DNA of 64,000 nt, taken from positions 13,034,001 to 13,098,000 of the forward strand of contig NC_060019.1 of NCBI RefSeq assembly GCF_021134715.1. The letters run 5' to 3'. The notes under the pieces were generated by a model. That model saw nothing but the letters and a program-made list of their open reading frames with translations. It searched no databases and was not told the origin of the DNA. A program made the position numbers and the translations under genes. This stretch comes from Daphnia pulex. Taxonomy: Eukaryota > Arthropoda > Branchiopoda > Diplostraca > Daphniidae. Positions 52,438-59,695 of the stretch are shown here, one piece after another (the stretch's first letter is position 1; every line of letters begins with the position of its first letter).

Positions 52438-54244
52438 ATGCAGTTCTCAATGCTATTGCTTTTGGGTATCTACTACATTTCTCATTTTAGAAAAAAAAAC
52501 CTACTGGCCCCCCTTCGTCTGGCATTGGATTTCACTCGTGAAATAATGTTTTCTAATTACAGGTGCCCTCTGCGTAGCTGCCGAAAAACCAACTGGTGGT
52601 CAAAGTGATGTGGCCGCCGTCAGCAAGAATGCTAATGCGACTAGCGAAGAAATCGCAAGGGTAAGTTTAGACCTTCCAGCAACCAGTCGAATGGAATTTG
52701 ATTGAAATTCAATTTCCATTTTTTATGTTTTTCTTAAGGACAAACGTGGATTTGGAGCTGCTTCCTCCGGCGGTGGGAGTTACAACGCTTCGCCCGCAGT
52801 CACCGTTCCCAACATTCCGCAATCCAGCGATCCTTACTCTTCCGGAAGCTCTTCGTCTTACTCTAGCGGATCCAGCGGATCGTCTTACGAATCCAGCCCG
52901 GCATCTTCGTATCCTTCGTCCGACTCTTACAATCCAGCCCCGGCTCCAGCCCAATCCAGCTACGGTTCCTCATCGGGAAACAGCTACGAATCGAACCCAG
53001 CACCTTCCTACTCGGCTCCCGCTTCTTATTCACCTGCTCCAGCCCCATCATCCAGCTATGGCGCTTCATCTGGAAATAGTTACGAGTCGAGCAACACCCC
53101 CTCCTATTCACCAGCCCCCGTTTCGTATTCACCAGCCCCTGCTCCGGCTCCATCCAGCTACGGTTCCTCATCCGAAAGCAGCTACGGCTCAAGCCTCACA
53201 CCTTCCTCCTATTCACCAGCCCCAGTGAGCTATGGTGAGTCATCATCCGGAAGCAGTTATGGATCATCATCCGGAAGCAGCTATGGCTCTTCCTCCGGCG
53301 GTGCTGGCGGTTATGGATCATCGTCTGGATCGCAACACGGACCCAGTGCCACATCGCTCGCCGAACAGGCAGCCAACCAGGCCAAAGCGGCCCAAAATGC
53401 CCAGGCTGGCGCAGCTGCCCAAGCAGCCCAACAGGCAACCTCTCAACTTGCCGCCCAGGCCTCTCAAGCCGCCCAACAAGCCCAGGCAATCGTCGCCGCC
53501 AAACAGGCCCAGACAGCCATGGTTGGTTATTTATTTCCCTTTTAATTATGCTTGACTGCAGCTAAATTCCGTTTTTTTTTTTGTCTTTGAAAGATCACTC
53601 AAGCGGCTCAAGCGGCCCAATCTGCAGCACTAGCCGAGGCTACATTGGCCAGCCAAGTTCAATTGGCGTTCCAGGTAATTCGCGATATTTATCTTTTGCG
53701 AGAATCATTGTCATTTTTCATGTTTATTTTTTCAAAGGCTGTCCAAAGCACTCACGTTCAGGCCACTCAACTCGCCCAGTCCATTCAGAATCTGGCTCAA
53801 GCTGCCAACAACCACGCCAAAACGTAAATAACCGGCCAACAACTTTCGAAACGAATGCTGGAACTAACTGTTTTAACTTTTAGTGCCACATCCGCCGTCC
53901 AAGCGATTCAGGCGGTCCAATCTGCTCAGAACCAAATGGCAGCTCAGGCCCAGCAGAATGCCGCCCATCTCTCTCAGAAGCAGCAGGCCAGCCTAGCTGA
54001 TTTGGCTTCGGCTCAACAAGCTGCCAACAAAGCGGCCGCTGCGGCTTCCGCCGCCCAATCCAACGTCTCCGGCGGTGGATCCTACTCGACCGGCTACGGC
54101 GGTGGTAGTGGCAGCAGCCACGGTGGTAGCAGCTCATCCGGATACGGCTCACAGTCTCAGCAGTCGTCGTCGTCATCCAACAGCTACGGAAGCTCGACAT
54201 CGTCGACCAGCTACGGAAGTTCATCCGGAGGATCCAGCTATTGA
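52438..54244 (+). CDS. Ala/Gln-rich, Gly/Ser-flanked secreted structural protein (family member 2, long form)
   Basis: Six exons: 52438-52465, 52563-52660, 52739-53521, 53594-53674, 53738-53823, 53884-54244 (478 residues). Signal peptide is MQFSMLLLLGALCVAA. A DKRGFG site after a short acidic propeptide matches the two minus-strand relatives. This member has an added block of about 150 residues built from Ser/Tyr/Pro repeats (SSYGSSSGNSYES, YSPAPAP), recalling silk or adhesive proteins. The Ala/Gln helix region follows (QAAKAAQNAQAG-like phrases; QQASLADLASAQQAANKA near the end), then a Gly/Ser/Tyr/Gln-rich tail without the terminal cysteines of its relatives. Exons 1-4 match the relatives in phase; the intron between exons 5 and 6 is phase 2 here and phase 0 there, and the domain exons are shorter. 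Likely extracellular structural material. Function is not established. Confidence 0.85.
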
Positions 54245-54506: not shown

Positions 54507-55247
54507 TCACGCATATTGGGCCGGCACGGCGTTGACCAGTTCGTCGACTTTGGCCGCCAAGCTGAAACGTTTGATGGCTCTCAGCGCAGTGACGAGTTCC
54601 CTCACGAGATCTCGATGCGATCGCGTTCGCCGAAACAGGTCGAGCATCTAAGTTGATTGTAACTCATTGTTTAATAATGGCACTGGAGCATGAAGCTAAT
54701 TCACATATACTTCCGAAGCGGCCAATTGCTGGTCGTTGCTGGTCGACGCTTGAATGTTTGCGATGTCGAATTCTGCCAGTGTCAGTTGACGGGCCAAGTT
54801 CCTCCAATCATTTTGAATACCCTCGGAAACTTGAGCGAAAGCTTAATCGAGTTCGCAATTAATACATATAGATGATAGATTACGACTAGGAATCAAAGTG
54901 GGTTACTTACCATTGTCGATGAGCATGGACATGTCTTTTGGGTGAGATGACGACGGAGGCGAGTGGCAATAGCGGCCGATGATTTGCTTCAAATCGGATC
55001 TGTCGGCCACTTCCGCCATGGCGATGAGCGCCGACAAATTATCGGGTCGAACTACGTGACGTGAAATCAGGTAGGTGAGCAGAGACGGCCCGTCTACCAA
55101 ATAGTTGAGCGTTTGTCTGGAATCGATTTCGGCACTGAAACGCTCAATCAGTGCGTTGAGCTGAAGCGTGTCCATTCTAGCCAACATGTTGCTGCATTCC
55201 TCAATCAACTCGTGAAATGGCAAGTGGCGATTCTCAGCGCTGCTCAT
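54507..55247 (-). CDS. FADD-like adaptor, DED plus death domain (copy A)
   Basis: Three minus-strand exons: 55247-54911, 54841-54711, 54647-54507 (phases 1, 0), 202 residues, no signal peptide. Residues 8-95 fit a death-effector domain: FHELIEECSNML at helix 1, then SLLTYLISRHVVRPDNLSAL and finally the RxDL signature in DRSDLKQIIGRY (charge-triad motif of DEDs). After a short Ser/Pro linker, residues 113-195 fit a death domain: WRNLARQLTLAEFDIANIQA, then MLDLFRRTRSHRDLVRELVT and ALRAIKRFSLAAKVDELV. DED then DD is the FADD architecture; arthropod FADD links IMD or death signalling to the caspase DREDD (family knowledge). The frame stays open upstream to 55391, so a longer N-terminus from an upstream ATG is possible. 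A close relative lies 1 kb away on the same strand. Confidence 0.82.
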
Positions 55248-56233
55248 CTTTTTTAATCCCAAATTTGAAATGAAAACAAAGGGAAATGTTTGTTGGAGCA
55301 GATTACAAAAATCGAACCTTTCCGATTGGTTTTCACGAAGCGACTGAAATGTCCAGTCAAAAAAAGGACCGTCAACTGCTGATCCTGACAACAGAACCTA
55401 ATCTCGGCAAATGATAACTGGAGTTACCCTTGAAGGTAATTAACATTTACCTCTCTGAAAATAAAAACGGGGAAAAAACCTTTTCATTTTGACATTGTTT
55501 GGCGTTTTTCAGATAGATCGTCTCAAATGTGAAATTTTTATTTCAAAACGACTTTATTAATAACGATGAGAAATCAACGTTTTACTTTTTCTTCTGATAC
55601 AACATGGGAAACGGCGCACATGAGCAAAGTACTACGGCCTACGGGAATTACTATTTCCTATGAATCGTATCACTCTTATAATTCTGAATTCTGATTATAA
55701 ATCATTTTCGTTCTGGCAGAGGAAAGTCTGGAAATGCCAAATTATTCTATCGCAAGGCATTTAAACACTTAAAACTAAAGTAATAACATTATAGACTATA
55801 TTATTTTCATACAAAAATTTTTGCCTGTTTCTGTTTAGTGTTTACCCTCTCCCTTTGACCCTTTTGTTTATTATTCATGTAAGAAATTGCAGTTTTTCAC
55901 CCATGCTCTCTGCTGTGCCACAACAATTCAAACAAGTTACAATTTTTTTTTTCATTTTTTATTATCCTTTCTTCAATGCAACCATCAGTTAGCTGCAAAT
56001 TATTATGTGCATGATACTTTACAAAGGCCTGAGCCTGACAAAGGAAACGATTGGTTCTACGAAAATATGTAAATCATCAGAAGCAGACGACTGACACGAG
56101 GCGAATGTTCAATTGTTCAGTCACAGCTCACGCGGTCACACCGTTCACAGCTCACAGGTAAGATCAAATTAATTTGATATATTTCGCACTCTATTAACGT
56201 GTCTAGCTCGCAATCAGTTGGTTAAGGGCAATG
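55248..56233. other. Spacer between the two FADD-like genes
   Basis: AT-rich, no recognisable gene. It probably holds the promoter of copy A and the 3' flank of copy B. No TATA-type element was seen, unlike the cuticle genes around it. Confidence 0.45.
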
Positions 56234-57131
56234 TTAAGAGCATCTCGGATCAGCAGGGGAAACAATAGGTTCAATTTTTCTACGAATTTCACTCCTTTTA
56301 ATGGTATTCAAGGCTTGCATTATGGTCTGGATGTGATCAACGTCAGGGTTCCTTTTTCGAAACAGCCTCAGTACCTAATCAAAGAACATTCAAAGGGAAA
56401 TTATGTGAATCACTCTTATTACCTGAATCATAATTTCAGAAAACTGACACTTTTCTTCCAGGTTTTTACTCAATTAAACAACAGCATGGTATACGACGTT
56501 AATCCTATCCCATGCCAACAGTTACAAACTAAATTTACCTGCATAGTAGTTTCTTGCAAATCCCCTTGGTGTTGGCTTTTCAAAGTCTGTAGCTCATTTT
56601 CGCTGAAGTCAAAGGGAAGGACTCGAGCAAAAGTCAAGACATCTTGGCCAAGGCGTTTAGCTACTTCTGTAAACACTGAGAAAGAGAAGGATGTTTTTTA
56701 TACAAATGAAATTTCTTTTTTTCAAGACTCGTGACTTTCTTACCCTTTTCTGTCAACTTGTCTCTGGAATCTTGACGAGTGACTTTAATTTCTTGTTTTG
56801 CAGGCAATACTGGTGAAGGGGGATGGATAACAATCTCTCTGTGTTTTTTGTAATCTTCGATTCTTCTTGCAGCCAAGGGACGATCAACAATCTTGGAAAT
56901 TTCAAGTAGGGCATCTACATTTTGAGGATTTAACACATTTCTGGCTTCCAAAATAGAGACAAGAGAGTTGATGTCTTTAATGTAGCTCATTACGCGATTA
57001 GATTGGATTTGATCGCGAAAATGTTCGAGTGCATCTTTCAACTCTCTTTCTCCTAAGGCAGCCAGGTGTAACTTCACTACGTCTTCTATTAATACGCTAT
57101 AAGGATTTCTAATGTCGCGTGTGGGGAACAT
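56234..57131 (-). CDS. FADD-like adaptor, DED plus death domain (copy B)
   Basis: Three minus-strand exons: 57131-56744, 56675-56539, 56374-56234 (phases 1, 0, the same as copy A), 221 residues. The N-terminal half fits a death-effector domain: YSVLIEDVVKLHLAAL, then LVSILEARNVLNPQNVDALL and ISKIVDRPLAARRIEDYKK. Its RxDL motif is degenerate (DRPLA in place of DRSDL), so the DED may pair differently from copy A. A 35-residue Lys/Pro linker follows. Residues 131-215 fit a death domain: VFTEVAKRLGQDVLTFARVL, DFSENELQTLKSQHQGDL, then VLRLFRKRNPDVDHIQTIMQ. It is probably a cytoplasmic adaptor of caspase or immune signalling, like FADD. Which copy is the functional orthologue cannot be settled here; copy B has the longer linker and copy A keeps RxDL. 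Confidence 0.82.
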
Positions 57132-57900: not shown

Positions 57901-59695
57901 CTAGTAGCAACCTGGTACGTTATAAGGCCAATCACACACTACATTATGAACAAAGCAATAAAAATAAACTTTAGAATAGATAGAATTGTTTTTACGCAAT
58001 ATTTATGGTACTTACCGTTAACTTTGGAATTGAAAACAAGACCAGCTTGGCAATATAAAGTGATGACCTGTTGATTAACGCATTGATAATATTTAGAGCA
58101 ATCGGCCGGATCAGCGTAATATTGGCCGTTACTCGTACACGTTACTAGATTGCATCAAAAGAAGACGTAAATTCGATAAAACAAACTAATGCTTTTTTTT
58201 TTACTTACTAGGGCGCTGAGTGGTTTGCGGATAGAGTGTCGGTGTTGGTGCCGGAGTTGAGGTGTCAAACGGCCGTCCTTCGAGTGTTGCAGTTATGGCA
58301 TTCGAAAAGGGGCTATTTAAAATAAAGGTAATAATAATTTGCGAATCAATGACGCAATTCAATTTTATTTCATACCGTGGACCCATATTGCAGACGCCAA
58401 GGAAATCGTCCAAACTGAGTTCCCAGAACATGATTCCACCCAAATTTTTGCTCATTGCGTATTTTACCTTGAGAATTGCCATGTCTACATCGTCCCATGA
58501 AGCCCAAGTTGTTCCTTTGAAACTGTATGGGCCCATCAGGCCTTGAGGGTCGGTCACTGTCGTCCACCCACTCTGTTGGTACAAGCACATCTCATACAAA
58601 GAAAGGAAACCTTCTGCTCCGGTGTACTTCCCTGCAGGACCGGCTCCGGTTGCAGGAGATAAAAGGCCAGTTTGCGTTGGGTCTTGTAGTGTCCAACTCC
58701 GACCGTATGCTGGCAAACCAAAAATTAATTTCTCGGCTGGCATCCCATTTTCCAGCCAAAAGTCAACTGATTCGGCTACTAAAATCGCCTCAGTGCCTTC
58801 TTCAAAGTCACGCCGATAAAGCGGGGCGTGATGGTCCACTTGATTTTCCCAGGCGCCGTGGATATCTATTGGCAGAAAAGGCTGGATGTAGTTATTCTTT
58901 TGTAACGAGTTTAGGCAACGATCGATTTACCATATGTCATAAAGTTGACGAAATCTACAGCTTCTGCAATGGCCGGGATATTGTAGCTCGTTTCAGCCCG
59001 TACTGCACTGCAAGACACTGCTATCGTGAGCAGTAAATTGTGAGGTTTGAAAGCGTCGCGAAGCATTCTCAAGAGCGTGATAAAGTTCTCTTTATCCTCG
59101 GGTTTTCCCGGATCACCAGGATACTCCCAATCGAAATCCAGTCCATCAAAATTGTACTGAAATAACATATAACAAATTAATTGTCGCATTTATTAACAAA
59201 AATTTATTATTTTTTACCTGCAGGACGAAAGCAAGAGCTTTTTGCACAAAGTTGGCCATCTTCACGGGATCTGCTACAAGTTCTGAATATTGAGTGGAGA
59301 ACGCCGAGTCATTCCATCCTCCAAGCGCAATCAAAGTTTTAAGGTTAGGATTTTGATTTTTCAACCCGGTGAATGTTTGGTAACCGCCTAGACCGATGTC
59401 GGCCCAATCGTCGAATACTTTCATTTCGTATGTGACGCGGTCAAGTACGCTGAAACCATAGATCAAATGGGTGCATTCGAATGCGTCCAATTTATCAGGC
59501 CCATACTGTCCAAGCCCTAGTGCCAATAATTAAACAAACAAATCAACATAATTAAAAACCTAATAGACTTGTGTACGTTGAATTACCGTTGCGGTAAACC
59601 GCCCAATTGGCAAAGTAACAAACTTTTTTGTAGTTTCCTTGAGCATTGGCCAAGGTAACTAGCAAAGACAACGCCAACAAGACAACTATTTTCAT
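57901..59695 (-). CDS. GH18 chitinase with C-terminal CBM14 domain
   Basis: Seven minus-strand exons: 59695-59587, 59516-59218, 59156-58931, 58865-58376, 58312-58209, 58144-58016, 57938-57901 (464 residues). Signal peptide is MKIVVLLALSLLVTLANAQ. The GH18 TIM barrel starts at about residue 23 (KKVCYFANWAVYR). It contains the SxGG-type strand (LIALGGWND) and the catalytic DxxDxDxE motif (FDGLDFDWEYP, acid/base Glu147). FMTYDIHGAWE and a late barrel MFWELSLDDF are also present, so an active endochitinase is expected. A short Thr/Pro linker follows, then a six-cysteine CBM14 domain that ends four residues after CDWPYNVP. It hydrolyses beta-1,4 chitin in cuticle or peritrophic matrix during moulting or digestion. 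Possible promoter: TTATAA near 59782-59787 and TCAGT at 59741-59745. Confidence 0.95.

Follow-up and report, generated by a model that had tools for sequence, protein, structure and literature searches.

In Table 1 of PMC4833078 a single FADD gene is counted in each of Drosophila, Daphnia and Strigamia; of the other five species, three have none and two arachnids have 2 (Parasteatoda) and 3 (Mesobuthus). The expectation of the first-pass annotation that arthropods usually have one FADD fits the first three species. The arachnid FADD-like copies are described in PMC4833078 as being without an N-terminal DED, and for malacostracans PMC5437397 reports that no clear FADD was found. Daphnia is reported to be without PGRPs (PMC4833078, PMC2685406) and to retain much of the IMD pathway (PMC4833078), raising the question of what feeds this pathway in Daphnia. 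PMC2685406 lists one Imd, and FADD is absent from its main text. Among the matches listed in a search of the open-licence PMC literature, no report of two FADD genes in Daphnia was found.

Two neighbouring FADD-like genes, A and B, are present in a 64,000-nt window of the Daphnia pulex assembly (the whole stretch of DNA analysed; NC_060019.1, 13,034,001 to 13,098,000). Like human FADD (PDB 2gf5, 8yd7), which is the best sequence and fold match of A, both carry a DED followed by a death domain (DD). They differ from it in being two tandem copies, in having replaced six of the human DED interface positions looked at and, for B, in lacking both the RxDL motif and a DD tryptophan. The arachnids resemble this case in carrying several FADD-like genes, but A and B each have a DED. 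The human sequence, rather than the Drosophila FADD of the IMD pathway, was used for all FADD comparisons.

The span from 54507 to 57131 has the stop codon of A at one end and the ATG of B at the other; both genes lie on the minus strand, and all exon borders are predictions from the sequence. Gene A is a three-exon model (55247-54507, minus strand, 202 aa). Its exon 1 (54911..55247) holds the complete DED at residues 27-93 and ends in phase 1, exon 2 (54711..54841) holds the first half of the DD and ends in phase 0, and exon 3 (54507..54647) holds the second half and a TGA stop. For intron 1 of A there are two candidate acceptors, separated by 12 bases. Of these the more upstream, 54842, was chosen by alignment, as its use brings back a segment that corresponds to parts of B and of human FADD. 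Gene B is likewise a three-exon model (57131-56234, minus strand, 221 aa), in which exon 1 (56744..57131) contains the complete DED (residues 26-96) and a linker and ends in phase 1, exon 2 (56539..56675) contains the first half of the DD and ends in phase 0, and exon 3 (56234..56374) contains the second half and a TAA stop. In both genes intron 1 interrupts the codon next to the conserved F at the start of the DD, on its 5' side, and intron 2 falls in the same alignment column. A and B are thus adjacent, on the same strand and alike in intron positions and phases, as expected of tandem duplicates and as the first-pass annotation had proposed. Their separation, put there at about 1 kb, is a 986-bp spacer (55248..56233, GC 0.354). 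Just downstream of B, inspection by eye showed a stretch resembling a splice donor, CACAG/GTAAGATC, on the plus strand (56100-56165), opposite to that of B; it may be the noncoding first exon of a plus-strand transcript. The flanking genes, also read by eye, are a Gln/Ala/Ser/Gly-rich repetitive protein (52700-54244, plus strand) and a chitinase of GH18 type that includes a chitin-binding region (57939-59530, minus strand).

In profile searches the Pfam Death profile (PF00531) scored 41.2 bits in A and 40.4 bits in B, both above the cut-off of 22.6. The DED profile (PF01335) was found in both (A, 24.4 bits, E 3.6e-5; B, 29.4 bits, E 9.3e-7), although below the curated cut-off of 35.9, and no other Pfam domain exceeded its cut-off in either protein. 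A DED search of the whole assembly (133,188,837 bases, 13 contigs) returned three places at E<=10, none above the cut-off, with B first (26.9 bits) and A second (19.5 bits). The third place (18.5 bits, genome-wide E 0.256) is an 85-aa open frame on contig C12 (L003:1474-1728, minus strand). This frame alone scored 19.4 bits (E 0.0012) against the profile, and its match is doubtful and may have arisen by chance.

Structure prediction gave a six-helix DED fold for A. For B six helices were also predicted, but in a weak model (mean pLDDT 49.3) with no meaningful structural match, so that the expectation of a six-helix DED was borne out clearly for A only. Human FADD was matched in the PDB by A at E 6.3e-6 and, through the DD, by a joint A and B profile at E 8.8e-7; B alone gave no human FADD match at E<=1. 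With a DED-only profile of the two copies the best PDB sequence match was PEA-15, at a weak E of 0.02. PEA-15 is a DED-plus-tail protein without a death domain, and A and B differ from it in having one. The weak fold model, together with the fact that B is known from sequence alone, would fit a B that is decaying or no working gene at all but an artefact of the gene model. We consider this very improbable, given 222 codons (stop included) that stay open across two introns matching those of A, a Death score above the cut-off and a DED match that ranks first in the assembly.

When the assembly was searched with either protein, the best non-self place was the DED exon of the other copy (31% identity; E 3.4e-5 and 3.0e-5 for the reciprocal matches). 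Identity between A and B is 26/87 in the DED and 21/91 in the DD, with shuffle Z scores of 16.9 and 12.9, respectively, and in neither domain did any of 1000 shuffles reach the observed score. In the codon alignment, which was protein-guided, second positions match at 60% and 57%, third positions at 21% and 26%, and fourfold third bases at 3/19. This pattern fits an old duplication with constraint on both proteins. Taken together, these data are best read as indicating that A and B are tandem FADD paralogues derived from an old local duplication, both apparently still constrained at the protein level.

The first-pass annotation had pointed to the RxDL motif as a difference between the copies, and the motif is indeed present in A as DRSDL and lost in B, where DRPLA occupies the same alignment position. 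By hand count, RSDL corresponds to residues 83-86 of A (54990..55001, minus strand) and RPLA to residues 84-87 of B (56871..56882, minus strand). From this motif difference a division of labour had been proposed in which A recruits DREDD through its RxDL-bearing DED and B, without the motif, acts as a modulator. The distribution of human FADD R34, which only A retains and whose mutant was impaired, also speaks for this proposal. Several published observations favour a role for the motif: the D74A mutant of human FADD, which changes the D of RxDL, gave no activation of caspase-8 in a lysate assay, and an involvement of D74 in CD95 signalling is stated (PMC11074299); the title of a 2006 paper in the reference list of PMC11074299 states that an RxDLL motif is required. 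In the same study, however, D74A behaved as the wild type did in TNF/CHX-treated cells (PMC11074299), and FADD self-association was assigned in another to a hydrophobic patch, not to RxDL (PMC4558505). As far as these sources go, published findings on the RxDL motif of human FADD disagree.

A legend of PMC4558505 describes the E/D-RxDL triad as a conserved feature of DED proteins. At its acid position (human E19) the one alignment used gives E for B and Q for A, so that, depending on that alignment, neither copy has the full triad: A has RxDL with Q, and B has E with RPLA. The triad was not treated as decisive for FADD membership in this analysis. In the same alignment human E22 is Asp in B and Ala in A. 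Against the DED of human FADD, B scored 48 (2 of 1000 shuffles as good) and A only 31 (153 of 1000), and B also has the better fit to the Pfam DED profile. No RxDL was found in the candidate DREDD prodomain (187 residues tested). Since the human mutant and interface data conflict and the comparison by domain is mixed, loss of RxDL is a poor, though not an empty, predictor of the role of B. That A recruits DREDD by RxDL while B modulates is unlikely: the supposed non-recruiting copy has the more typical DED, the triad acid is missing from the supposed recruiter in the alignment used, the candidate DREDD prodomain has no RxDL, and the D of the motif is dispensable in one of the human cell assays.

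Of the human FADD positions looked at in this alignment, A and B both carry substitutions at F25, L28, K33, E37, Q40 and E51. According to PMC11074299, human FADD mutated at F25, K33 or E51 brought back almost no apoptosis, and the E37K and R34A mutants were impaired in caspase-8 activation. As neither copy retains F25, K33, E37 or E51, the surfaces concerned would seem able to vary. This would suit a redundant pair that shares the same IMD and DREDD partners, differs mainly in the time or place of expression and owes its motif differences to drift on unused surfaces, and the contrasting GC3 values (A 0.631, B 0.374) could reflect different expression. Such redundancy is rather unlikely, as the identities of the DED and DD given above are low for redundant partners.

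The two copies also differ in their death domains. Against the DD of human FADD, A scored 92 and B 53. A has DWRNLARQL, close to the human DWRRLARQL, and B has lost the W of the DWxxLA stretch. On this crude measure, the scores against the human FADD domains suggest that the DED of A and the DD of B are the more derived halves, and in the best reading the change in B lies no less in its DD than in its DED. Among the 12 Death places of the assembly, this comparison covered all but L031, L033 and L034, and scores were used for those other than the minus-strand places L025, L027, L029, L030 and L035. One place, L024 on contig C3 at about 9.97 Mb (C3:9971365), has a DD that scored 99, above A, and that adjoins or follows an apparent ankyrin ZU5-UPA region, as judged by eye. 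Its best PDB matches were FADD, followed by ankyrins. DD similarity alone was rejected as proof of a FADD because the L024 domain outscores A yet follows an ankyrin-like region.

The explanation that we tentatively prefer, at slightly below even chances, is that A and B are tandem FADD paralogues, with A the conservative IMD-DREDD adaptor and B a second adaptor with a changed DD partner. By analogy with the family, each would act as a bridge, its DD docking on a DD partner and its DED nucleating a caspase such as DREDD. A, as the more conservative copy, would most likely link IMD to DREDD. In B the DED is still recognisable, the DD is more derived and RxDL is gone, which points to a second adaptor in which the upstream DD partner has probably shifted, rather than the caspase side alone; B may also co-assemble with A. 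We infer this role split, the anatomy and paralogy of the pair being the part for which the sequence itself argues. A more specific proposal makes B a retargeted FADD that links DREDD or another caspase of this genome to a DD receptor other than IMD, for example one like the p75NTR with a death domain described in D. pulex (PMC2772990). This is improbable; if true, a lineage in which PGRPs are reported absent would possess, alongside IMD, a death-receptor branch of TNFR-like type. A second, diverged FADD offers a specific point at which a further input could enter the IMD pathway.

A DREDD-type caspase locus was found on contig C11 (L045:2508-3739, minus strand; about 2047507-2048738 of the contig). 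Its prodomain matched Pfam Dredd_N at 62.9 bits (E 2.6e-17); the match to Dredd_2nd was weak, at 16.4 bits (below the cut-off of 27). A caspase domain with QACQG lies in a neighbouring open frame. The assembly thus contains two FADD-like genes and a DREDD-type caspase, compared with FADD 1 and DREDD 0 for Daphnia in Table 1 of PMC4833078. DREDD itself is not new in D. pulex, because a rhythmic Dredd gene model is already named in PMC4991082. A screen for DED caspases, using a home-made DED profile on 1921 open frames at 13 caspase loci, gave six matches at E<=5, none below 0.25. The best of these (L050:5653-5943) lies upstream of a kinase domain, has no Pfam match and was rejected, being read by eye as a kinase N-lobe.

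Elsewhere in the assembly, a kinase domain lies ahead of at least six caspase genes (QACQG). They lie at L050:5653-7500 (plus strand, C5), L051:5170-6760 (plus strand, C12), L046 (two genes, minus strand, C12) and L048 (two genes, minus strand, C1). Pfam Pkinase was matched in four of the six (E 2e-19 to 4e-27), the other two being judged by eye, and the one kinase compared with the PDB, that of L051, matched IRE1 best (E 7.9e-19). By eye, the start of the caspase domain continues in the open frame of the kinase in L050, L051 and one L048 gene. Nothing relevant to a kinase-caspase fusion was seen among the best 10 of 51 literature matches, and this family may be more novel than the FADD pair. 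In these genes HRN replaces HRD, which suggests that they encode pseudokinases.
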